DNA of 64,000 nt, from the NCBI RefSeq assembly GCF_021729885.1, contig NZ_CP063401.1, positions 3,402,501 through 3,466,500 of the forward strand, in the 5' to 3' direction. The translations under genes were made by a program, and so were the position numbers. Shown piece by piece: positions 3,387 to 31,943 of this stretch (within the stretch, counting starts at the first letter, position 1; each line of letters starts with the position of its first letter). The notes under the pieces were generated by a model. The model was not told where the DNA came from. It did no database searches and saw nothing but the letters and a program-made list of their open reading frames with translations. The stretch is from Devosia sp. SL43. Lineage in GTDB: Bacteria; Pseudomonadota; Alphaproteobacteria; Rhizobiales; Devosiaceae.

Positions 3387-4682
3387 ATGGCTCACGTCGT
3401 CGTTCTGGGTGCCGGTCTTGGCGGCACAATCATGGCCTACGAGCTGCGCGAAGCGCTCGGCGCCAATCACAGGGTTTCGGTGGTCAACAAAGGGACCAAG
3501 TTCAACTTCGTCCCGTCCAATCCATGGGTTGCCGTTGGCTGGCGCGACCGCGATGACATCGAGGTCGATCTGACCGACGTGTTTGAACGGCGGAACATCG
3601 AATTCTTCCCCCAGGGCGCCGAGCGCGTACATCCCGCAGAGAAGCGGGTCAGACTGTCCGACGGTAAGGACCTCGACTACGACTACCTCGTCATCGCCAC
3701 GGGGCCCGAACTCGCCTTCGATGAAATCCCGGGCTTTGGCCCAGACGCGGCGACACAGTCGATCTGCCACGTCGATCACGCACTTGGAGCCAAGGATGAG
3801 TTCAAACGACTGGTCGCAAATCCCGGCCCCGTCATTGTCGGCGCCGTCCAGGGCGCCTCCTGCTACGGCCCGGCCTATGAGTTCGCCTTCATCCTCGACA
3901 AGGCCCTGCGCGACGCAAAGGTACGCGATAGGGTTCCGATGACCTTCGTGACCGCCGAGCCCTATATCGGGCATCTTGGCCTCGATGGCGTGGGTGACAC
4001 CAAGGGCCTGCTTGAGAGCGAAATGCGGCAGCGCCATATCCGCTTTATCACCAATGCCAAGGTGGACAAGTTCGAGGAAAGCAAGGCATTCGTCAGCGAA
4101 ATCGCCGACGATGGGTCGGTGCGGCGGTCCCATGAGATCGCGTTCGTCTACACGATGATGTTGCCGGCCTTTCGCGGCGTGCCCGCAGTGCACGGCATCG
4201 AGGGCCTGACCAATCCACGCGGTTTCATCCTGGCCGATCAGTATCAGCGCAATCCCACCTTCAAGGACGTGTTCTCCATCGGCGTCTGCGTCGCCATCCC
4301 GCCGGTGGGCAAGACACCAGTGCCGGTCGGTGTGCCCAAAACCGGCTTCATGATTGAATCGATGGTCACTGCAACGGCGCAGAACATCGCCAGCCTGATC
4401 GCCGGCAAGGAGCCGAAGGCTATTCCGACCTGGAACGCGGTGTGCCTTGCCGATTTCGGCGACGGAGGCGTGGCCTTCGTGGCACAGCCGCAGATCCCGC
4501 CCCGCAACGTCAACTGGTCGAGTTCAGGCAAGTGGGTCCATGCCGCCAAGGTCGGGTTCGAGAAGTATTTCCTGCACAAGATCCGCTCTGGCACTGCAGA
4601 GCCATTCTATGAAAAACTTGCCCTGCAGGTCCTCGGCATCGACAAGCTCAGGGCTGTCAAGCAGGACAAGACCGGGACATGA
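3387..4682 (+). CDS. sqr: Sulfide:quinone oxidoreductase
   Basis: A 431-residue membrane-associated flavoprotein that oxidises sulfide to sulfane sulfur and passes electrons to the quinone pool. It opens with an FAD-binding Rossmann motif (VVVLGAGLGG). Three cysteines fall at positions 127 (SICHVD), 159 (QGASCYGP) and 353 (NAVCLADFGDGG), the same numbering as the three essential cysteines known in Rhodobacter capsulatus SQR. ATG 3387 is chosen because GGAGGAG at 3377-3383 precedes it; ATG 3375 and GTG 3360 are in frame but lack such a site. The stop overlaps the thioredoxin start by four bases, so the two are translationally coupled. An FNR-type box lies upstream. Confidence 0.92.
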   Translation: MAHVVVLGAGLGGTIMAYELREALGANHRVSVVNKGTKFNFVPSNPWVAVGWRDRDDIEVDLTDVFERRNIEFFPQGAERVHPAEKRVRLSDGKDLDYDYLVIATGPELAFDEIPGFGPDAATQSICHVDHALGAKDEFKRLVANPGPVIVGAVQGASCYGPAYEFAFILDKALRDAKVRDRVPMTFVTAEPYIGHLGLDGVGDTKGLLESEMRQRHIRFITNAKVDKFEESKAFVSEIADDGSVRRSHEIAFVYTMMLPAFRGVPAVHGIEGLTNPRGFILADQYQRNPTFKDVFSIGVCVAIPPVGKTPVPVGVPKTGFMIESMVTATAQNIASLIAGKEPKAIPTWNAVCLADFGDGGVAFVAQPQIPPRNVNWSSSGKWVHAAKVGFEKYFLHKIRSGTAEPFYEKLALQVLGIDKLRAVKQDKTGT

Positions 4683-5098
4683 CATACGTCGTCTGTTCGC
4701 ATTGTGGGGCAACAAACCGGATTGCCGAAGGCCGCGACCTAGCATCCGGCAAATGCGGCAAGTGCGGACGTCCGCTGTTCGACGGGCAGCCCGCCAACGT
4801 TTCGGCGGCGGTCCTCGAAAAGCAGATCGCCAATTCTGACATACCCGTCCTCGTGGACGTCTGGGCGCCGTGGTGCGGACCTTGCAAGGTCATGGGACCG
4901 CAGTTCGAGGCAGCGGCAAAACAGGCTGAACCCAAGCTTCGCATGGTCAAGCTCAACTCCGACGAAAGTCCAGCGCTCTCCGCACGGCTTGGTATTCGGA
5001 GCATCCCCACCATGATCCTGTTCAAGGAAGGCAGGGAGGTCGCACGAACCTCTGGCGCAATGACGAGCAACGACATCCTAGCATGGGCCAGTAAGTAA
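4679..5098 (+). CDS. trxC: Thioredoxin 2
   Basis: A 139-residue thioredoxin with the TrxC layout: an N-terminal zinc-binding segment with two CxxC pairs (C6/C9 and C26/C29), then a thioredoxin fold with the active site WCGPC at residues 65-69 and the cis-proline region SIPT. It reduces protein disulfides and, by family, is linked to oxidative stress. Its ATG overlaps the sulfide:quinone oxidoreductase stop by four bases. In this pair it could accept or clear persulfides formed by sulfide oxidation, which is inference from position. Confidence 0.92.
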   Translation: MTYVVCSHCGATNRIAEGRDLASGKCGKCGRPLFDGQPANVSAAVLEKQIANSDIPVLVDVWAPWCGPCKVMGPQFEAAAKQAEPKLRMVKLNSDESPALSARLGIRSIPTMILFKEGREVARTSGAMTSNDILAWASK

Positions 5099-5122
5099 TA
5101 CGCTGGCCAGCAATTTCATCGG

Positions 5123-5745
5123 CTACGCAGCGGCTTCCTGGATGGCCACTCCCAAGTCTTTGTTTTGCGCGGGAATTTCAAGGTGATCGCCTCCAGTTCC
5201 GTGACGTCTGGGGTAGTCCATGAGCCCTTCACCGACGACCCCGCCTTGGGCTTTCGCTGGAAGCGGTGATCACGTCGCCTCACGCGCCTTTGCCAAAATA
5301 GGCATGGAGTCGAACACGGCGCGGTTGGCGCTACGCCCTCGGTCCCAGGCGATGGCGACGTTGGACATGTCGTGCCTAAGAAGAGCTATCTCGGGGACAA
5401 ACATCACCGGCCGACCGGACCCAAAGATCAGCGCCTCGGTCAGGGCCGCAAGCCTTGACCGTCACATCCTCACGCCCTTTGCCACGCTCCTGCCTCTGGG
5501 ACGAAACTGGATTACTTGCGCAGAGGGTGCCTCGCCCCGCATCAGCGCGGCGATGTGGTCGCCAACGCGGTTCCTGTCCTGGTGCCATCCGACGGAAAGC
5601 TCTCTATGGCGCGTTGGTAAGCCTGGGCATCGGCGGTTTCGTCTCTGGGATTCTCCACGTTGCAACCATAGTGCAACCAAATGGGATCAAGCTCAAAGGC
5701 AAAACCGGATACGATCGGCGGCTCAAGCAGCACTATCATATTGGT
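5123..5745 (-). pseudogene. Universal stress protein (UspA family) remnant
   Basis: On the minus strand, recognisable Usp pieces are spread over three frames. Near 5542-5730 there is VSGFAFELDPIW. At 5462-5600 there is DHIAALMRGEAP. At about 5290-5450 there is ALTEALIFGSGRPVMFVP, followed by NVAIAWDRGRSANRAVFDSM. Near 5123-5200 there is LEIPAQNKDLGVAIQEAAA and a TAG stop at 5123-5125. At least two frameshifts and a premature stop separate them. The first 30 or so residues of a normal Usp are missing, cut off close to the tRNA remnant at 5772. The gene cannot make a full protein. The rest of 5099-5770 shows nothing else I can support. Confidence 0.65.
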
Positions 5746-7136: not shown

Positions 7137-7291
7137 CCAACCATCCCGCTTCGTCGCGAGACGCTTGGCAAGAGTCAGCTTTGCTGACCTATTGTGCACC
7201 TCTATCCAAAGCAATCCGAGAGCGAATGTGTTTTCGGCGGCGCTGCTCGGCCTCATGGGCCAAAGTATAGAGATCGATTTACTCACGCGAT

Positions 7292-7401
7292 GATTCTCGA
7301 TTTCGAATCGAAGACTCGCATGCCTTGAATCGAGATTCGTCCAGGCACCATATCTGTTCGGTATGACTCCGAAATACATCCAAATATGTCTTGAATGATT
7401 C
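7292..7401. promoter_or_regulatory. Cluster of seven GANTC (CcrM) sites in the 500-bp gap before the chemotaxis operon
   Basis: GANTC occurs at 7292, 7305, 7313, 7327, 7334, 7365 and 7397 (first base of each), all within 110 bp. GANTC is the target of the cell-cycle methyltransferase CcrM in alphaproteobacteria. The intergenic region 7137-7638 is AT-richer than its surroundings and holds no gene I can support; small frames inside it look like noise. It should contain the chemotaxis operon promoter. Several GATTC/GAATC sites form small inverted repeats, for example TCGATT-TCG-AATCGA at 7297-7311. Confidence 0.5.
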
Positions 7402-7638
7402 TGCACAAAGAAAACAGAGCGCAAATAGAACTGAGTAACTGTGGATTAACGCGCCTCGTATAACTTGGATAACGTGCTGGATGGGAATACGGCGCACCAA
7501 GAAGAGTTTCGTCCAAGCGTCCAGAAGGGGCCTTCGGCAGTTCGCCAGTAAAGCAGACATCTATCCGCTTCCCAGCGTATCCGCGGTGGAATTTTAGAAC
7601 ATGTACAGCGTTATTCGTTATGTGGCTCGGTCATCAGC

Positions 7639-24712: not shown

Positions 24713-25168
24713 CTAGCCCAGCAGCTTGCGGAAGTAGACGACGCGCTGGGTTTCGGTGAAGCCGAGCGCGCCATGCATCTGGTGGCTGGTCACGTTGGCG
24801 ATGTCAGCGTCGGACGCAAATTCGCTGCAACCCCGCTGCCGGCCCCAGCGCTCGACGGCCTCAACCAGTTGCCGGGCGACGCCTGATCGGCGCGCCGCCG
24901 GATCGACATAAATGCCTTCGAGGAACGCTACCGGTGTGCTCTTCGTGCCGTTGACGTAGTCATGCCGCAGGCTTGCTTCGGCAAAGCCCAGCGCCTGTCC
25001 GGTGTCGCTACGCGCTATCAGGTTAGTGAGGTCGCGCGGATTGGCCAGCCACGCTTCAATATCAGCACGATGCGCGTCCAAGCCGCCGTTTGGCCACAGC
25101 GCCTGCCGCATCGCCGCCCAATCGTCGGCGTCCTCCGTCGTAGCGACGGTGACGGTGACGGTGATCAT
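24713..25168 (-). CDS. GNAT acetyltransferase resembling aminoglycoside 6'-N-acetyltransferase
   Basis: 151 residues, a full GNAT domain close in pattern to AAC(6')-I enzymes: DWAAMRQALWPNGGLDAHRA, FAEASLRHDYVNGT, VAFLEGIYVDPAARRSGVAR (the acetyl-CoA loop) and the closing ALGFTETQRVVYFRKLL. AAC(6') enzymes acetylate the 6'-amino group of aminoglycosides. Whether this one does is untested. The ATG at 25168 overlaps the stop of the S24 repressor gene, so both come from one transcript. Confidence 0.82.
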   Translation of the reverse strand: MITVTVTVATTEDADDWAAMRQALWPNGGLDAHRADIEAWLANPRDLTNLIARSDTGQALGFAEASLRHDYVNGTKSTPVAFLEGIYVDPAARRSGVARQLVEAVERWGRQRGCSEFASDADIANVTSHQMHGALGFTETQRVVYFRKLLG

Positions 25169-25803
25169 TGGCTCGCCCAGATGATCCGTGCGATCCACTC
25201 CACATCGGCAAGGTCGAAGACGCGCGGCTCATAGGCCGGGTTGAGCGAATGAAGCTCGATCTGCCGTCCGGTCTGGCGGGCCAGGATCTTCGCCATAACC
25301 TCGCCCTCGCGCGTCTTGACGACGACGCGATCACCGCGCCGCACCTGCTCGGTGGGCGAGACCACGATGCGGTCGCCCTCGCGATAGAGCGGCTCCATCG
25401 AGTCGCCCTGCACCTCGAGCGCGTAGATCCCCGCTTCGCCCGGGGAAGGCAGGGAGATTTCGTCCCAACCCTGACCAGCGGGAAATCCCGCACTGTCAAA
25501 GAAACCGCCCGAACCTGCCTGAGCCAACCCAAGCAGCGGTACGGTCGGGTTTGGCGCGGAATCGCCCATTTGCAGGAACGTGCTGCTCGACCAGAACGAG
25601 CCGAAGCTTTCCCCCGTGGCGTCGAGAATTTTCGACAGACTTTCTGTCGATGGCCAGCGTTCGCGGCCATCCTTGCTGATGCGCTTGGAGACATTGAACG
25701 CGGTGGCATCAAGCCCGGCAAGCTTGGCCAACGCCGAAACCGAATGGCCGTGGCGGCGCGCGAGCGCGTCAATACCGTCCCATATGGCCCTGTGAGTGAG
25801 CAT
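25165..25803 (-). CDS. S24 family (LexA/CI-like) transcriptional regulator
   Basis: 212 residues. Residues 1-70 form an HTH (SVSALAKLAGLDATAFNVSK). Residues 115-205 are a self-cleaving S24 protease-like domain with Ser at 135 in VQGDSMEPLY and Lys at 172 in EVMAKIL, spaced 37 residues apart as in LexA. The Ala-Gly cleavage pair may be LAQAGSGGFF at about 94-103. Such regulators respond to DNA damage or act as phage-type repressors. An inverted repeat just upstream of the start may be its own operator. Confidence 0.85.
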   Translation of the reverse strand: MLTHRAIWDGIDALARRHGHSVSALAKLAGLDATAFNVSKRISKDGRERWPSTESLSKILDATGESFGSFWSSSTFLQMGDSAPNPTVPLLGLAQAGSGGFFDSAGFPAGQGWDEISLPSPGEAGIYALEVQGDSMEPLYREGDRIVVSPTEQVRRGDRVVVKTREGEVMAKILARQTGRQIELHSLNPAYEPRVFDLADVEWIARIIWASQ

Positions 25804-25808
25804 GCCGG

Positions 25809-25828
25809 ATTTCCCTGAGGCAGGAAAT
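25809..25828. promoter_or_regulatory. Operator-like dyad in the leader of the S24 regulator
   Basis: ATTTCC and GGAAAT form inverted arms separated by eight bases, starting six bases upstream of the regulator ATG at 25803. The dyad overlaps the probable ribosome binding region (AGGGA on the minus strand). Autoregulation is inferred. A second dyad, GGAATTAAGTCC, lies further upstream near 25842. Confidence 0.45.
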
Positions 25829-25932
25829 ATATCTTATTTGGTGGAATTAAGTCCTATATATATCGCCCCGCGTTGGCGGTGTAAAGTGCTGGGTTGCGGC
25901 CATTTCCGCCAAACCTCACGGACGAGCGTATT

Positions 25933-25973
25933 GGGAATAATCCCCATGACAATTACGTGGGAAAATTCCCATG
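25933..25973. promoter_or_regulatory. Two near-identical GGGAA-TTCCC-like sites upstream of the SARP-like regulator
   Basis: GGGAATAATCCCCATG (25933-25948) and GGGAAAATTCCCATG (25959-25973) are direct repeats 26 bp apart, each with internal dyad symmetry. They lie 50-90 bp before the regulator GTG at 26023. Repeated sites of this form usually bind a dimeric regulator twice. The binder is unknown; the SARP-like protein itself or the S24 repressor are candidates. Confidence 0.5.
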
Positions 25974-26022
25974 CACCGGTTAAGCTCATGACGAAGTTGA
26001 TGCTCCAGAAGGAAGGTAACCG

Positions 26023-27966
26023 GTGCGCGGAAAGGCAGCCCCTTTGCTGAGGCTTCTGGGACTTCCGGGCATCGAGCCGGCTTCCGATGCGACACGCCTA
26101 CCAGCCAAGGCCTTCGTCCTTTTCGCCGCCCTCGTCTTGGACTATCGACACGGCGTTTCGCGCGTCGATGCGGCCGCCCTGCTTTGGGGTGACGCAAGCC
26201 AGCCCAAGGCCTTCGCCAATCTGCGCCAGTTGCTCGCGGCCGTCGCCAAATGGGAGAGAGCCACCAGCACGCCGCTGCTCGTCCTCGATGGACGGATCAT
26301 CCACCCCACGAGCGCCGTGCTCGCGTCCGATCTTGGGACTATCCTCAACGCCAATGTCCCCGCAACGGAAGCCGACATCATCCGGCTATCGGGCCTTGGC
26401 CTGTCGAACCTCCTGAGCGGCGTCGAGATTTCCGAATCTGAACTAGCGCGCTGGGTCCAGGCCAGGCGGGAACTGGTCCGCGGCCGCGTCGCCGATCTGC
26501 TGATTGCTGCGGGCGAACGGCAGTGCTCGATCGAGCTGGAATATGCCTTCGACAAGCTCAGCGAACTTTCACCCCTCGACGAGCGCATCCTGCGGGCCCG
26601 CATGACCAATCTGGTCGGGTTGGGCAATGATGCTGCGGCCTTGCGGATCTGCGGCGACTTTTCCATACGGCTGGAACAGGATCTGGGCGCCAAGCCCGAA
26701 CTGGAGACACGCTCGCTGGCCGCCCGGATATCGGCGCGGGCGACGCCGCATGTCTCGGTTCCCGCGACCTATGCCGAGGCGCCAACGCAGCCCGGCCCCA
26801 TATCGCGCTCGCTGCCCAAGATCATCCTGATTCCACCCGAGCACAGCGCCCTCGTTGCCCGCAGCGATCTCGCCCTGGCACAGTCGCTGATCACCGACAT
26901 CACGCTTCAGCTCTGCCGCACCCGACAGTTTGCAATGTTCGCGCCCCATACCGCCCGCCAGCTGACGCAGTCCGATCCGCTGGCCGCGGCGGCGCCCTAT
27001 GGCCTCGACTACCTGGTCAGCACCTCGATATTTCCCGGTCCCTCGGCGCCGCGGCTTGCCTTCAGCCTTGTCGCGACCGATACGCAGCAGATTCTGGTGG
27101 CCGACGAGATCACGCTACAGCAGGATCGGTTGCTGACCGCACAAGCGACCCTCTCCGGCATCATCTCCTCCGCCATCTCGGATGGCGTGGCATCCGCCGA
27201 GCTACATCGCTACCGCACAACAGGCGCCGCTTCGGCCTATGTGCGGTTTCTGCTGGGCACCAGCATGACACACAATTTCGATCTGAAAATCCTGCGCCGG
27301 TGCCGCAGCCACCTGGCACAAGCCTTGCGATTGACGCCCGACTATGTCCCAGCCCTGAGCGGGATGGCGCGTACCCTTTCGCTGGAATGGCTGCTGCTCG
27401 GACGGTCCGATCGTGATTTGCTGCACGAGGCCAAGCGTCTCGCCGGCCGCGCGGTCGAGCTCGATCCGCTCAATGCCGTCGGCCATCGCGAGTTGGGACA
27501 TGCCAGCATGTATCTGGGCGATCTGGATGCGAGCGAAGAGCATTTCGAGGTGGCGCTGGATCGTGCGCCGCACCATGCCGACATCATGGCCGATCGCGCC
27601 GATATTCTGGTCCATGCCTCAAAGATGAGTGAGGCCAAGGCCCGGATCGACCACGCCATCGCGCTCAACCCACTTGCGCCCGACGACTATCTCGGCATCA
27701 GCGGTTCGGTGGAGTTCTTTCTCGAGAACTATTCCGTCGCGCTGGCGCAGTTGCGCGGCATGCAGGATCAATCAATCGTCGACCGGCTGATGGCCGCTGC
27801 GGCCGCCATGGCCGGCGACCTCGACACGGCGAAAATACACCGCGACCGATGGATGGCACGCTATCCCGATTTCAGGCTGAAGGACTTCGCCTCCGTCATG
27901 CCGCACCGCTCCAAAGCCAATGTCGATCACTTCGTGATGGCCCTGTCCAAGGCAGGCTTCTCCTGA
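26023..27966 (+). CDS. SARP-like regulator with BTAD and TPR domains
   Basis: 647 residues. The N-terminus (about 1-90) is a winged-helix region with FANLRQLLAAVAKWERAT, typical of SARP/AfsR-type activators. Residues 110-235 fit the bacterial transcriptional activation domain (RWVQARRELVRGRVADLLIA, then RLEQDLGAKPE). A middle part of about 180 residues resembles the regulatory half of adenylate-cyclase-associated TPR regulators. Residues 420-600 contain TPR-like helices (LDPLNAVGHRELGHASMYLG). GTG 26023 is preceded by GAAGGAAGG. It probably activates the YcaO-TfuA genes that follow 100 bp downstream in the same direction. Confidence 0.85.
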   Translation: MRGKAAPLLRLLGLPGIEPASDATRLPAKAFVLFAALVLDYRHGVSRVDAAALLWGDASQPKAFANLRQLLAAVAKWERATSTPLLVLDGRIIHPTSAVLASDLGTILNANVPATEADIIRLSGLGLSNLLSGVEISESELARWVQARRELVRGRVADLLIAAGERQCSIELEYAFDKLSELSPLDERILRARMTNLVGLGNDAAALRICGDFSIRLEQDLGAKPELETRSLAARISARATPHVSVPATYAEAPTQPGPISRSLPKIILIPPEHSALVARSDLALAQSLITDITLQLCRTRQFAMFAPHTARQLTQSDPLAAAAPYGLDYLVSTSIFPGPSAPRLAFSLVATDTQQILVADEITLQQDRLLTAQATLSGIISSAISDGVASAELHRYRTTGAASAYVRFLLGTSMTHNFDLKILRRCRSHLAQALRLTPDYVPALSGMARTLSLEWLLLGRSDRDLLHEAKRLAGRAVELDPLNAVGHRELGHASMYLGDLDASEEHFEVALDRAPHHADIMADRADILVHASKMSEAKARIDHAIALNPLAPDDYLGISGSVEFFLENYSVALAQLRGMQDQSIVDRLMAAAAAMAGDLDTAKIHRDRWMARYPDFRLKDFASVMPHRSKANVDHFVMALSKAGFS

Positions 27967-28057
27967 GATTTACGGGGCGGTTGCGACTAGCAGGTCTACC
28001 AAGCCGAGTCCGCCGAGATTATTTCCCAAAAAGACGAAGAGAAAACAAAGCCTTAGA

Positions 28058-28085
28058 TTGACCCTTGCTCACAAGGGAGGGTCAA
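28058..28085 (+). promoter_or_regulatory. Dyad/hairpin TTGACCC-N14-GGGTCAA over the start of a small ORF
   Basis: Outer arms TTGACCC (28058-28064) and GGGTCAA (28079-28085) are perfect inverted repeats. Inside, CCCTTG (28062-28067) and CAAGGG (28072-28077) form an alternative 6-bp stem with a CTCA loop. The AGGGAGG ribosome binding site of the small ORF lies in the right arms. This may be a regulator operator, an RNA switch that hides the ribosome site, or both. Confidence 0.5.
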
Positions 28086-28271
28086 TTGCTGACACATTAC
28101 ATACAGGCTGCGGCTAAGTCGGGCTTCATGCAGGTGACTGACGCGCGGACCGGCGGCGTGCAACTCGTATTCGTTGGTGAAGCAGCCGCAGCCCAGCTGC
28201 AAGACGTCGGCGCCATCAGACCCCAGGCCGACGCGCCTTCGCAAAGGTGGATCAACGTTATCGCTGCTTGA
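28086..28271 (+). CDS. Small ORF upstream of ycaO; candidate peptide substrate
   Basis: 61 residues from TTG 28086, with AGGGAGG six bases upstream. The product starts LLTHYIQAAAKSGFMQVTDA, contains RTGGVQLVFVGEAAAAQLQD and ends SQRWINVIAA. It has no Cys and no signal peptide. Its last 25 bases overlap the ycaO start in another frame. Position and coupling make it a candidate precursor for the YcaO-TfuA pair, but no known leader motif is seen. It may instead be a short regulatory or non-coding stretch. Confidence 0.4.
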   Translation: MLTHYIQAAAKSGFMQVTDARTGGVQLVFVGEAAAAQLQDVGAIRPQADAPSQRWINVIAA

Positions 28272-29449
28272 CCGTGTCGAGCGGCGACTACAGCGATCGC
28301 ATTTGCCCGCCGGAACAGACCCTGTCCCGGCTTGCGCCGCACCTGGCGGCGTATGGCATCACGCGCATCGCCCGGCAGACCTCGCTCGATACGATCGGTA
28401 TTCCGGTCTTTGCCAGCTTCCGCCCCAATGCGCTGACGCTTGCCACCAACCAAGGCAAGGGGCTGACCGACGAGGCGGCCAAGGCATCGGCTGCCATGGA
28501 GGCGATGGAATGCGCCATCGCCGAACAGCCGGAATGCGACATCGTGATTGCGACCGCCGCCGACCTGGTGGCGCAGGGAAGATCTGTCTACCGCTCCACC
28601 GGCACGCTGCCAGCGGGCGAGACTTTCCCGCGAGATCGGCCGATCAGCTGGGTGCAGGGCACCAACCTTTCCAATGGCGACGCATGCTTCATTCCGCTTG
28701 ATGTCGTGCGGTTCTCGGGCCGCGCTGCCGACCTGCCCGGCATCTGCCAGCACACCAACGGGCTGGCATCAGGCAATTGCATCGAGGAAGCGTTTTTCCA
28801 CGGTCTCTGCGAGCTGATCGAGCGCGATGCCGGCACGCTATGGGCGATCACGCCACCCGATCACCGGGCCGCACGCCAGATCGATCCTGCCACCCTTGAC
28901 GATCCGCAGGTCGATCGCCTCGTCGACATGATCGCAATGGCCGGCTTTTCGCTGATGCTGTTCGACCAGACGACCGATCTTGGTATTCCCACGGTCATGG
29001 CCGAAATCTGGCCGGTGGGGCGGGCAAGGCCGGGCCTTTTTGAGGTCTCATCTGGGTCTGGCACGCATCCCGTTTCCGTCCGCGCCGCCCTGCGCGCGAT
29101 CACCGAGGCCGCCCAGTCGCGCGTGACCACAATCGCGGGCGCCAGGGATGATATCGAGCCATCAGGCTATGGCAGCGACGCACCGCCCACGCGGATCAAT
29201 CCAGCTCCTGTCGGCCGCCTGACAAGCGGACTTGCGCTGGGAACGCCACTTGAGCGGATGACCGAGCACATGCTGACCCAACTGGCGCGCCACGGCATTC
29301 ATGACGTGCTGTGCGTTCCCCTGGGCGGCGACCGGGTTGGGATTTCGGTGGTCAAGGTTCTGGCTGAAGGTCTTGAGGATTGGGGCGTCAATCTCAACTG
29401 GACACCGGGCACGCGGGCTTTGGCATGTCTGGCAGCGCTACGATCGTGA
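28247..29449 (+). CDS. YcaO family ATP-dependent cyclodehydratase/thioamidase-like protein
   Basis: 400 residues. YcaO enzymes activate backbone amides with ATP; those paired with TfuA insert sulfur to form thioamides. Seen: an N-terminal RYRCLT segment followed by PEQTLSRLAPHLAAYGITRI, TLATNQGKGLTDEAAKASAA, then AMEAMECAIAE and the later NGLASGNCIEEAFFHGLCEL-IERDA stretch with acidic residues expected to bind Mg-ATP. GTG 28247 keeps the conserved N-terminal RYR; GTG 28274 is an alternative. It lacks an E1-like or Ocin-ThiF partner, which fits the TfuA-dependent subclass. The stop overlaps the tfuA GTG. Confidence 0.88.
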   Translation: MDQRYRCLTVSSGDYSDRICPPEQTLSRLAPHLAAYGITRIARQTSLDTIGIPVFASFRPNALTLATNQGKGLTDEAAKASAAMEAMECAIAEQPECDIVIATAADLVAQGRSVYRSTGTLPAGETFPRDRPISWVQGTNLSNGDACFIPLDVVRFSGRAADLPGICQHTNGLASGNCIEEAFFHGLCELIERDAGTLWAITPPDHRAARQIDPATLDDPQVDRLVDMIAMAGFSLMLFDQTTDLGIPTVMAEIWPVGRARPGLFEVSSGSGTHPVSVRAALRAITEAAQSRVTTIAGARDDIEPSGYGSDAPPTRINPAPVGRLTSGLALGTPLERMTEHMLTQLARHGIHDVLCVPLGGDRVGISVVKVLAEGLEDWGVNLNWTPGTRALACLAALRS

Positions 29450-30138
29450 GGGTCGTGTTCGCCGGACCGAGCATTTACGGCCTGGATCTCGACTTTACCG
29501 GCCTGCACCTGCTTCCGCCGGCATCGCGCGGTGACATCGCCAGCGTCGTCAGGCAGGGTGCTACTCATATTGGGCTGATCGACGGTTACTTTGGCTGGGT
29601 CGCATCGGTTTGGCACAAGGAAATCCTGTTCGCGCTCGAAAGCGGCGTCACAGTCATGGGTGCCGCATCGATGGGCGCCCTGCGCGCCGCCGACTGCGCC
29701 GGCTTCGGCATGGTGCCGGTCGGGCGCATCGCCAACTGGTATCTGGACGGAACCCTGGACGACGACGGCGACGTGGCCATCATCCACGCCCCACCCGAAC
29801 TTGGATATGCACCGCTGACCGAGGCCCTCGTCGACGCGCGCGCGACCTTGGAACAACTGATGCAACTCGGGCTTCTTGGCGATGGGGAATACCATGCCCT
29901 GAGCAGGCGGGCCGAGGCGCTGAACTTTCGCGAGCGCACTCGCGAAGCCCTTGCAGCTGCGCTGCCCGAGGCGCGTCGGGTGGCGGTGCTGCAGGCCTAC
30001 ACGGCCCACCATAGGTCGCTCAAGCAGGAAGACGCCCGTTTGTTGGTCGATCGCCTGCGCTCTTCTGAAAATGCTCAAGCCACTGTGCCGCATTGGAAAA
30101 TGGCTGAGTCCTTCACCTGGAAATCCTCAGGTTTGTAA
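29446..30138 (+). CDS. TfuA-like protein
   Basis: 230 residues. The TfuA core is clear: VVFAGPSIYGLDLDFTGLHL, THIGLIDGYFGWVASVWHKE, then ILFALESGVTVMGAASMGAL-RAAD. TfuA partners of YcaO are known from trifolitoxin and thioviridamide clusters and from thioglycine formation in archaeal methyl-coenzyme M reductase, where they are thought to help deliver sulfur. GTG 29446 is chosen because it overlaps the ycaO stop (GTGA); ATG 29425 is also in frame. The pair is therefore translated together. Confidence 0.9.
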   Translation: MRVVFAGPSIYGLDLDFTGLHLLPPASRGDIASVVRQGATHIGLIDGYFGWVASVWHKEILFALESGVTVMGAASMGALRAADCAGFGMVPVGRIANWYLDGTLDDDGDVAIIHAPPELGYAPLTEALVDARATLEQLMQLGLLGDGEYHALSRRAEALNFRERTREALAAALPEARRVAVLQAYTAHHRSLKQEDARLLVDRLRSSENAQATVPHWKMAESFTWKSSGL

Positions 30139-30149
30139 ATCCGGCGACC

Positions 30150-30171
30150 GATTCACGCTGGAATCACGCTG
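30150..30171. repeat. Two tandem 11-bp repeats upstream of the LuxR-type gene
   Basis: GATTCACGCTG (30150-30160) is followed at once by GAATCACGCTG (30161-30171), differing at one base. The period is one helical turn, and each copy starts with a GANTC methylation site. They lie 46-67 bp upstream of ATG 30217, a fitting place for an activator or repressor. Confidence 0.45.
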
Positions 30172-30216
30172 GTGCAGCTTCACTCCCTCGAGGTCTTTCG
30201 TTCGAAGGGGTCAAGC

Positions 30217-30495
30217 ATGCCTGCCAAGTCATCCACCACGCGACCAGAACAGTTGCTGCCGATGCTGCTTGAGAGACTGACGCCGCGCGAGTGGGAAGTG
30301 CTGCGGCTCATTCTGGAGGCGCACACGTCCAAGGAAATTGCGCACATTCTCGATATTTCCCAGCGGACTGCCGAGCAGCATTGCGAAAACCTCAAGGCTA
30401 AGCTCCTGGCGCGCAGTACCATGGACGTGCTTCGTATCGTCGCTGCCGCCGAACGAATGGGGCTGGTGCAGCATCGGCAATTCGAGGTGGCGTAG
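30217..30495 (+). CDS. LuxR-type HTH protein without sensor domain
   Basis: 92 residues consisting almost only of a LuxR/GerE DNA-binding domain: LTPREWEVLRLILEAHTSKE, then IAHILDISQRTAEQHCENLK and a final helix. ATG 30217 has GAAGGGG at good spacing. There is no receiver or autoinducer domain. It lies 79 bp after tfuA and is followed by an orphan receiver gene on the same strand, so the two could form a split response regulator. Confidence 0.85.
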   Translation: MPAKSSTTRPEQLLPMLLERLTPREWEVLRLILEAHTSKEIAHILDISQRTAEQHCENLKAKLLARSTMDVLRIVAAAERMGLVQHRQFEVA

Positions 30496-30616
30496 GCTCT
30501 CGCTGGGGAGTTTCTGAACAGCTGTCGTAATTTGCGCTGATCACAAGCCGATTTGAAGGATCGTTAGTCCTGCATCCGCGTTGCGTCTGTCTGGTATCAA
30601 CAATGGACAGTGCGGC

Positions 30617-30982
30617 ATGTCGGACAAGATCGCCGTTTTAGTTGTCGAAGACGAGTTCCTCGTAAGATTGGACATTGTCGATCGCCTGACAGACGCGGGT
30701 TATCAGGTCTTCGAAGCATCCAACGCGGACGATGCCGTGGCCCTGCTTGAGGGCAATGCCGAGATACGGATACTCTTCACCGATATCGACATGCCTGGCA
30801 GCATGGACGGCCTGAAACTGGCGGCGGCCGTGCACGATCGATGGCCGCCCATCAAAATCGTGGTCACGTCAGGGCACCGTACCGTGGAGATCACCGACCT
30901 GCCTGACGGCAGCGTCTTCTTCAGCAAGCCCTATCACCACGCCGGCGTCACGCGCTCGTTCCGGGAACTCTTGGCTCTCTAG
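30617..30982 (+). CDS. Orphan receiver domain response regulator
   Basis: 121 residues of a single receiver: acidic pair in VVEDEFL, phosphoacceptor D56 in LFTDIDMPG, Ser in VVTSGH and Lys104 in FFSKPY. The DIDMPGSMDGL stretch with PGSMDG is typical of the alphaproteobacterial FAT-GUY or Sma0114-like receiver group, partners of HWE/HisKA2 kinases. No output domain follows. It may act with the 92-residue LuxR-type protein upstream. ATG 30617 has no strong ribosome binding site. Confidence 0.87.
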   Translation: MSDKIAVLVVEDEFLVRLDIVDRLTDAGYQVFEASNADDAVALLEGNAEIRILFTDIDMPGSMDGLKLAAAVHDRWPPIKIVVTSGHRTVEITDLPDGSVFFSKPYHHAGVTRSFRELLAL

Positions 30983-31016
30983 TGGCGGGGACGGCCTGAG
31001 CATCAATTCTAGAAGA

Positions 31017-31943
31017 TTAAAAGTCTAGAAAGTCTAGGCCCCGGTCCCAGTAGGGCACGTTGCCTACTGCCCTCACCAGATGGTCGACAAACGCCCGAAC
31101 CTTGCCAACGTCGATCCGGCCCGGAGGCATGACGGCATAGAAGGACGGCTCCAGCACTTTCCAATCGCATAGCAGCGGGATGAGTGCTCCCGATTTCAGA
31201 TGGTCCGAGGCTATGAATGTCGGAGCAAGAGCCACGCCGACGCCGGCGACCGCCGCCTTGACCAGCGTCTCGCCATTGTTGCTACGAAGTCTGCCAGCCA
31301 CTCGGACATTCTCGGTTTCACCGTTCCGGTCAAAACTCCAAGTGCCCCTTCGCGCCAAATAGTCGTACACGAGACACTGGTGCTGCTCGAGATCGGTTGG
31401 ACTCTGGGGAGCACCGTTTGCATCGAGGTAAGCAGGAGACGCGCAGACGATCATGCGCGCCGGCCCCAGATGGCGCGCCAACAAGGTGGAATCTTCAAGG
31501 CGTCGGATCCGGATGGCGATGTCGTAGCCTTCCTCCACGACGTTGACCGTTCTGTCGTCCAGCGTGAGTTCAACGTCCACATCGGGATAGATGCAAAGAA
31601 ACTCGCTCACAATATCGCTGAGATGAAGCACCCCGAACGACATTGGTGCGTTTATGCGCAACGTCCCTTTCGGCGACGCGGTCGCGCCCCTGATGTCCTG
31701 CTCGGCACCTTCAAGAAGACCGAACAGGGTCGATGCCGTCGAGGAGAGAGTACGGCCGGCCTCGGTGAGGCTGAGCCGCCGCGTCGTGCGGTTGAACAGT
31801 TTCGCGCCAAGCTCTTTTTCGAGATCAGCCACATGCTTGGTGGCGAGTGGTCTCGAAATCCCGAGCTTGTCCGCTGCCTTGGCGAAACTGCCCTGGGACG
31901 CGATGGTGACGAAGGTCCTCAGCGAGACAAGGTCGCGGATCAT
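31017..31943 (-). CDS. LysR family transcriptional regulator
   Basis: 308 residues: N-terminal winged HTH (LVSLRTFVTIASQGSFAKAA, then DKLGISRPLATKHVADLEKE) and a C-terminal substrate-binding effector domain of about 210 residues. It is divergent from the exported YcaC-like hydrolase, with 133 bp between the starts, so the hydrolase and perhaps the cytochrome behind it are the likely targets. The inducer is unknown. Confidence 0.92.
   Translation of the reverse strand: MIRDLVSLRTFVTIASQGSFAKAADKLGISRPLATKHVADLEKELGAKLFNRTTRRLSLTEAGRTLSSTASTLFGLLEGAEQDIRGATASPKGTLRINAPMSFGVLHLSDIVSEFLCIYPDVDVELTLDDRTVNVVEEGYDIAIRIRRLEDSTLLARHLGPARMIVCASPAYLDANGAPQSPTDLEQHQCLVYDYLARRGTWSFDRNGETENVRVAGRLRSNNGETLVKAAVAGVGVALAPTFIASDHLKSGALIPLLCDWKVLEPSFYAVMPPGRIDVGKVRAFVDHLVRAVGNVPYWDRGLDFLDF

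Follow-up and report, generated by a model that had tools for sequence, protein, structure and literature searches.

A BTAD-linked YcaO–TfuA gene set in Devosia sp. SL43 is a candidate minimal cassette for a thioamidated peptide

The stretch of the Devosia sp. SL43 genome analysed here (contig NZ_CP063401.1, positions 3,402,501 to 3,466,500, 64,000 nucleotides; referred to as the window) contains, at its positions 26023–30138, a BTAD/TPR regulator gene, a 61-residue open reading frame (ORF), a ycaO gene and a tfuA gene. A preliminary description, made from the sequence only, had placed these four genes here, and their presence, all on the forward strand, is confirmed, with Pfam matches for the regulator, YcaO and TfuA. 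It had also recognized a YcaO/TfuA thioamidation pair with a linked BTAD/TPR regulator, which agrees with our prediction for the gene set. The four genes are as follows.

26023–27966, forward strand: BTAD/TPR (SARP-like) regulator, 647 amino acids, GTG start; PF03704 at E = 8.8e-8 plus TPR models.
28086–28271, forward strand: 61-residue ORF, the proposed precursor of a ribosomally synthesized and post-translationally modified peptide (RiPP); TTG start; a leader, then a core around ADAPSQRWINVIAA.
28274–29449, forward strand: YcaO, likely GTG start, longest ORF from 28247; PF02624 at E = 5.1e-64.
29446–30138, forward strand: TfuA, 230 amino acids, GTG start overlapping the YcaO stop; PF07812 at E = 2.5e-37.

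The 61-residue ORF has a strong ribosome-binding site (AAGGGAGGG precedes the TTG at 28086) and ends with a TGA at 28269–28271; two bases past this stop is the GTG at 28274, which is probably the start of YcaO rather than 28247. YcaO query sequences began at 28247 or at 28277, the latter one codon inside this GTG. At the other end of ycaO, the sequence GTGA at 29446–29449 contains both the YcaO stop and the TfuA start. Because of this overlap and the two-base TGA/GTG spacing, the 61-residue ORF, YcaO and TfuA look translationally coupled; YcaO and TfuA had been described as translationally fused, and the overlap exists as noted, but the genes overlap and are not fused. The G+C fractions of the 61-residue ORF at the three codon positions (0.69, 0.48 and 0.67) resemble those of the neighbouring genes, and it matches no Pfam family. 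Among the nine window proteins scanned with Pfam, which are spread over 24713–31943, we found no E1-like, transporter or tailoring families, in agreement with the earlier observation that the set lacks an E1-like partner, a transporter and a second tailoring gene.

The YcaO/TfuA pair is predicted from its sequence to install backbone thioamides. The host genome encodes one YcaO and one convincing TfuA, with a second TfuA match being weak (E = 0.008). The best solved-structure matches of YcaO are 6pe3 (MJ1094, which we take to be an MCR-type YcaO, acting on methyl-coenzyme M reductase) and 6ci7, and that of TfuA is 6xp8 (E = 8.7e-28). Residues E85, E88, E189, E192, E287 and Q290 of YcaO (numbered on the 400-residue form), presumably the ATP/Mg-binding residues, align with 6pe3, are present in the window protein, and are kept in at least 98% of the 56 rows of the clade described below. 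The preliminary description had raised the prospect of a clade inactive at this site, and the intact residues speak against it. In TfuA, Ser75 is present in 74 of 75 aligned rows and Lys193 in all 60 of 60; TfuA has been reported to use a Ser–Lys pair on ThiS-COSH (PMC13185837).

In NCBIfam comparisons the best models are the McrA-glycine models TIGR03266 (202.1 bits against a cut-off of 365) and NF033432 (144.6 against 235.2 bits), both below the curated cut-off, and the E. coli-type YcaO model NF040716 scores 20.7 bits against a cut-off of 700. YcaO also matches TOMM_cyclo_SagD at 1.6e-29, again under the cut-off, and as YcaO enzymes are known for azolines and amidines as well as thioamides (PMC13063428), and some cores in the family described below contain Ser or Cys (e.g. 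that of locus L039), YcaO could be making azolines or another backbone change instead of thioamides. We consider this highly improbable, given that the tfuA gene overlaps ycaO, that no E1-like or dehydrogenase gene is found among the nine proteins scanned, that the best solved match is MJ1094, and that the C-terminal 14 residues encoded by the window ORF, ADAPSQRWINVIAA, include one Ser and no Cys or Thr.

To place this gene set among its relatives we surveyed the neighbourhoods of this YcaO clade, a check that the preliminary description had proposed. YcaO matches are present in 37 of 201 genomes at E = 0.001 or better and in 53 of 397 genomes of the order at 1e-40; the order is most likely Hyphomicrobiales, because a small protein of Rhizobium sp. 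NXC14 (L182:3776-3919) is identical to the corresponding ORF of locus L135. Seventy-three neighbourhoods together with the window give 74 oriented loci, all of which contain a TfuA match. A BTAD gene lies directly upstream of YcaO in 51 of the 74 (20 genera, one order, window counted), 50 of them assigned by rule and L117 by hand, its BTAD match overlapping the YcaO start, and small ORFs are present in the slot between the two genes. In a quick YcaO tree of the 74 rows, the 51 BTAD-linked rows and five others form one group of 56; two of these five, L056 and L108, begin where their contig does. For the other 18 rows, the 1.6 kb upstream of YcaO contain no BTAD gene in the same orientation, although in nine of them the BTAD protein finds a match elsewhere in the stretch. 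Outside the order we examined 18 loci of 23 match places, leaving out five; L201 stops about 750 bases before YcaO. None of the 18 carries a leader-type ORF or has BTAD at the upstream position, and in L190, L192 and L204 the second half of the BTAD protein finds a match elsewhere in the stretch, away from that position.

The ORF occupying the same slot in L035 is 43.5% identical to the window ORF (E = 4.7e-11), with a global alignment score of 110, as compared with a mean of -18, standard deviation of 9.5 and maximum of 29 in 2,000 shuffles. Over 59 codons the two differ at codon positions 1, 2 and 3 in 25, 19 and 32 cases respectively, differences at the third position being the most frequent. 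We then built a leader profile from 29 seeds picked by eye, leaving the window ORF out, and ran it on 15,393 ORFs. Thirty-nine of these match at E = 2.9e-7 or better, including ten that are non-seeds, and all 39 end no more than 176 bases upstream of the YcaO match; 39 of the 50 other BTAD-linked loci thus have a small ORF of the leader family in the gap between regulator and YcaO. The place of the window ORF in this family would come mainly through its nearest relative in L035.

Ten of 40 precursors, from six genera, contain an exactly repeated unit of at least five amino acids, examples being RSDAASHHYFPNRG in L053, SESLSAASSHNWGEPVRGGD in L054, RS(D/E)(A/P)AAHILYGADT in L099 and GGLFERSE in L114. 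Multi-core RiPP precursors typically have such repeats behind a leader, and this supports the interpretation of the 61-residue ORF as a precursor. The motif [DE][AP][AP][SA][HQ], defined after its occurrences had been seen, is present in seven of the 40 precursors (window, L035, L121, L053, L099, L102 and L116), compared with 11 of 4,484 other ORFs of 55–110 amino acids; over 300 shuffles the count averages 0.19 and never exceeds 2. In the window it takes the form DAPSQ, located inside RPQADAPSQRWINVIAA and common to the window, L035 and L121; the window core DAPSQ thus resembles the motif of tandem-core family members. NCBIfam searches with seven precursors gave only chance matches for one repeat protein and one weak repeat model. 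The precursor ORFs of the window, L035, L039, L040 and L124 end in Ala-Ala, as does a small ORF in L046, and it is possible that this terminus is a recognition or release signal.

Other small ORFs are seen at some of these positions. L055, L112 and L135, three of the BTAD-linked loci without a leader-family ORF, share a different ORF of 47–52 amino acids (e.g. RFSAAAKAAMKQDELNVTANALENLTHALKFR) in the precursor slot, and L131 and L133 have mutually similar 138-residue ORFs between BTAD and YcaO, unlike the short leaders elsewhere. Outside the BTAD group, L062 carries, some 400 bases ahead of its YcaO (oriented 7265-7600), an ORF in which the unit PTQVCGK(I/V)S occurs four times, perhaps another multi-core precursor.

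Three further features flank the four genes.

25165–25803, reverse strand: S24/LexA-like repressor gene, divergent, adjoining the cassette.
25932–25971, no strand assigned: two inverted repeats, TGGGAATAATCCCCA (25932–25946) and TGGGAAAATTCCCA (25958–25971), ahead of the regulator gene.
30172–30495, forward strand: small LuxR-type helix-turn-helix (HTH) protein, a possible optional member of the set; GerE at E = 8.5e-15.

The distribution of the cassette within the genus is patchy. A YcaO of this type is present in six of 75 genomes (the host genome, G014, G039, G051, G070 and G071), and G062 has a weaker, different YcaO. The S24 gene is present in 74 of the 75; in the five other carriers it is located either on another contig (four genomes) or about 2.5 Mb away (G039), and its 1.5 kb flanks in 29 non-carrier genomes hold none of the window's right-hand genes. 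Between the window and the L035 host, YcaO is 60% identical, and the neighbouring S24 protein is 83% identical. The cassette looks like an accessory, fast-diverging gene set, as would be expected for natural-product genes rather than for a housekeeping modification.

These observations bear on a role in protein modification, which the preliminary description had considered possible, with a cellular protein being thioamidated and the 61-residue ORF acting as a helper or being spurious. Protein targets of YcaO enzymes are known, namely McrA (PMC5589413) and uL16 (PMC13063428), and the best NCBIfam models for both enzymes here are the McrA-glycine models. The window enzymes nonetheless fall below the cut-offs of the protein-target models TIGR03266, NF033432 and NF040716 (i.e. 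both the McrA and the S12/uL16 types), suspected uL16-type YcaOs are described as having no TfuA encoded nearby (PMC13063428), the YcaO is confined to a minority of genomes and diverges faster than the S24 protein next to it, and tandem-core precursors occupy the position of the 61-residue ORF in its relatives. A cellular-protein target is thus disfavoured, and we regard it as quite improbable.

We favour the interpretation that this is a minimal thioamidated-RiPP biosynthetic cassette with the 61-residue ORF as its precursor, to which we assign a probability of about 0.8, and the likeliest substrate of YcaO/TfuA is this ORF itself. The gene set had been described as unlike a typical RiPP antibiotic cluster, but in relatives the slot of the 61-residue ORF is taken by a precursor-like ORF, often with tandem cores, and thiovarsolin B needs no more than its precursor, YcaO and TfuA (PMC6511847); a minimal thioamidated-RiPP cluster, rather than protein modification, is therefore most likely. 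The gene order, the family memberships, the intact conserved residues and the precursor family with tandem cores are all directly established. For the biochemistry, we infer that the N-terminal leader of the 61-residue ORF would be recognized by YcaO/TfuA with no E1-like partner, that YcaO would use ATP to activate an amide in the backbone of the C-terminal core, around ADAPSQRWINVIAA, and that TfuA would provide a sulfide equivalent to give the thioamide. Host proteases may then cut out a short peptide bearing the thioamide, as has been suggested for thiovarsolin, and the BTAD/TPR protein would act as the linked regulator.

Several observations weigh against the RiPP interpretation. The window ORF itself is a weak match to the leader profile (E = 0.38), ranked directly after the 39; these 39 are not independent, nine being close kin of one genus; and 11 of the 51 BTAD loci have no leader-family ORF. 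ThiS (TIGR01683) was not found in the host genome at E = 0.01, in a search whose control was detected in 8 of 14 genomes. The sole PF02597 protein over cut-off in the host genome is MoaD-like, at 65.1 bits against the TIGR01682 cut-off of 66.15; its gene is at G000:C1:1273609-1273851 (L184). A decayed or silent remnant that makes nothing would fit the TTG and GTG starts, the weak general profile match and the lack of a known product, but all frames are open, the ribosome-binding site and the couplings are intact, the conserved residues are kept, and the differences from L035 are most frequent at third codon positions; this is the least probable of the explanations that we considered.

We also looked at which genes recur within about 8 kb on either side, reading the 25 top groups by eye. 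The groups spread over most genera are BTAD (18), YcaO (17) and TfuA (13); the YcaO and TfuA counts fall short because of the ORF picking, direct searches finding both in all loci. In a further group, from seven genera, the longest member lies opposite the TfuA region and overlaps it, and we read this group as antisense. ABC-transporter-like ORFs occur in three to four genera at scattered positions, and the groups include no exporter, protease or tailoring gene with a constant position. LuxR-type relatives of the small HTH protein follow soon after TfuA in L035, L036, L037, L038 and L046; in L039 the distance is about 2 kb. An Xre-like HTH group is present in 13 BTAD loci from five genera, mostly directly before BTAD and about 2.5 kb upstream of YcaO (e.g. 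L115:5859-6347), and is possibly a further regulator of the cassette.

A similar arrangement is found on plasmids. There are 248 plasmid records that match YcaO, of which five were fetched, four with gene tables (Rhizobium sp. TH2, R. leguminosarum BIHB 1148, Rhizobium sp. NXC14 and S. meliloti Ak57), and in all four a regulator-sized gene, a small 'hypothetical protein' and YcaO occur in that order. Two of the tables annotate the regulator as BTAD; the remaining two call it 'adenylate cyclase' and 'peptide antibiotic resistance protein', the latter being the BTAD-position gene of R. leguminosarum BIHB 1148 (L181:1893-3740). The small proteins of three of the plasmids look, by eye, like members of the leader family. 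In S. meliloti Ak57 pSymB (L183) a regulator-sized gene, a leader-type ORF and YcaO (3959-5173) are listed and TfuA is not, reflecting either a YcaO-only version or an annotation gap. A scan of contigs for YcaO gave one locus, L034, with a short 45% match in a Bacillota metagenome-assembled genome, and no YcaO was found in viral contigs.

SARP regulators pair a BTAD domain with a winged-helix DNA-binding domain at the N-terminus. The BTAD domain occupies residues 135–236 of the regulator, for which Pfam lists no HTH model, and the solved-structure matches listed for this protein cover only its TPR part (residues 452–560). The two inverted repeats ahead of its gene share the arm TGGGAA and are the only such pair in the window; none of 500 Markov samples of the intergenic stretch has one, with the criterion having been set after the sites were seen. 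A looser palindrome pattern is not above chance (eight matches against 4.45 expected, with 8 of 100 shuffles having as many), and there is no TGGGAA pair upstream of BTAD in L035. We rejected palindromes as a general feature ahead of BTAD, as the best palindrome is equalled by at most one of 40 Markov samples in just 5 of 43 upstream regions, the window (10 of 40) not among them. We also rejected the sites as operators of the divergent S24 gene: in a scan of up to 350 bases upstream of S24 in 29 genomes with a locus (L163 could not be anchored), no such site was present in the 29 other genomes, and 22 of the 29 have a different double site, AGGA..TTCC..A(A/G)GA..TTCCT, close to the S24 start. 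A regulatory role for the TGGGAA pair is plausible. The preliminary description had proposed an activator acting through paired operators; the linked regulator and the palindromes exist as described, but relatives yielded no such palindromes, so that BTAD-mediated control stays putative.

One close known parallel is the thiovarsolin cluster of Streptomyces varsoviensis (varA, varY, varT), which likewise combines a precursor with YcaO and TfuA, and whose precursor family varies from non-repeating up to five repeats (PMC6511847). That cluster is described as being without a specific protease, with endogenous peptidases thought to release the peptide (PMC6511847). The window cassette differs in having a linked BTAD/TPR regulator, in having no heme-oxygenase-like, ATP-grasp, amidinotransferase or major facilitator superfamily gene among the nine proteins scanned, and in the leader and core of its precursor family, which are of the DAPSQ/DAASH type and not APR; neither APR nor GPR is present in the window ORF. 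The MCR-thioamidating YcaO/TfuA of methanogens provide the best NCBIfam matches for both enzymes and the best PDB match for YcaO, but the window scores lie below the curated cut-offs and here a small precursor ORF is the likely substrate. The E. coli-type YcaO, which modifies uL16, shares the YcaO family and a backbone thioamide, but is described as acting with no TfuA on a folded protein and as having an extra 150-residue TPR domain (PMC13063428); the window has TfuA, and NF040716 is not reached.

YcaO–TfuA clusters in rhizobia are already catalogued. Malit et al. 2021 reported more than 500 TfuA-related clusters in Rhizobium (PMC8120280), and their proteobacterial clusters resemble ours in having adjacent YcaO and TfuA, predicted precursors and related bacteria as hosts. 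The main text of that report mentions unnamed transcriptional regulators and contains 'SARP', 'repeat' and 'BTAD' zero times each (PMC8120280); ORFs of the precursor family may be listed in its supplementary tables. In the account of Cox et al. 2015, no substrate was known for the TfuA-associated YcaOs (PMC4603692). In the open-licence literature searched, we found no description of the BTAD-linked clade or its precursor family.

The thioamidated peptide could also serve as a signal that withstands proteases and targets the linked TPR regulator, either within the producing cell or following uptake. We raise this because the genes that are kept together in the 20 genera are a TPR-bearing BTAD regulator, a precursor and a thioamidation pair, with no exporter or immunity gene at a fixed place; it is a tentative and rather unlikely proposal, but if true the locus would encode a signalling circuit built on a thioamidated peptide and not an antibiotic pathway. 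Genome surveys have found hundreds of rhizobial TfuA–YcaO loci, few of them with a proven substrate. The BTAD-linked clade, with its four genes and a recognizable precursor family of single or tandem cores, narrows the search for new thioamidated peptides of soil and plant-associated bacteria to a small set that can be tested, and the cassette provides a simple model of how YcaO and TfuA choose a substrate without an E1-like partner.

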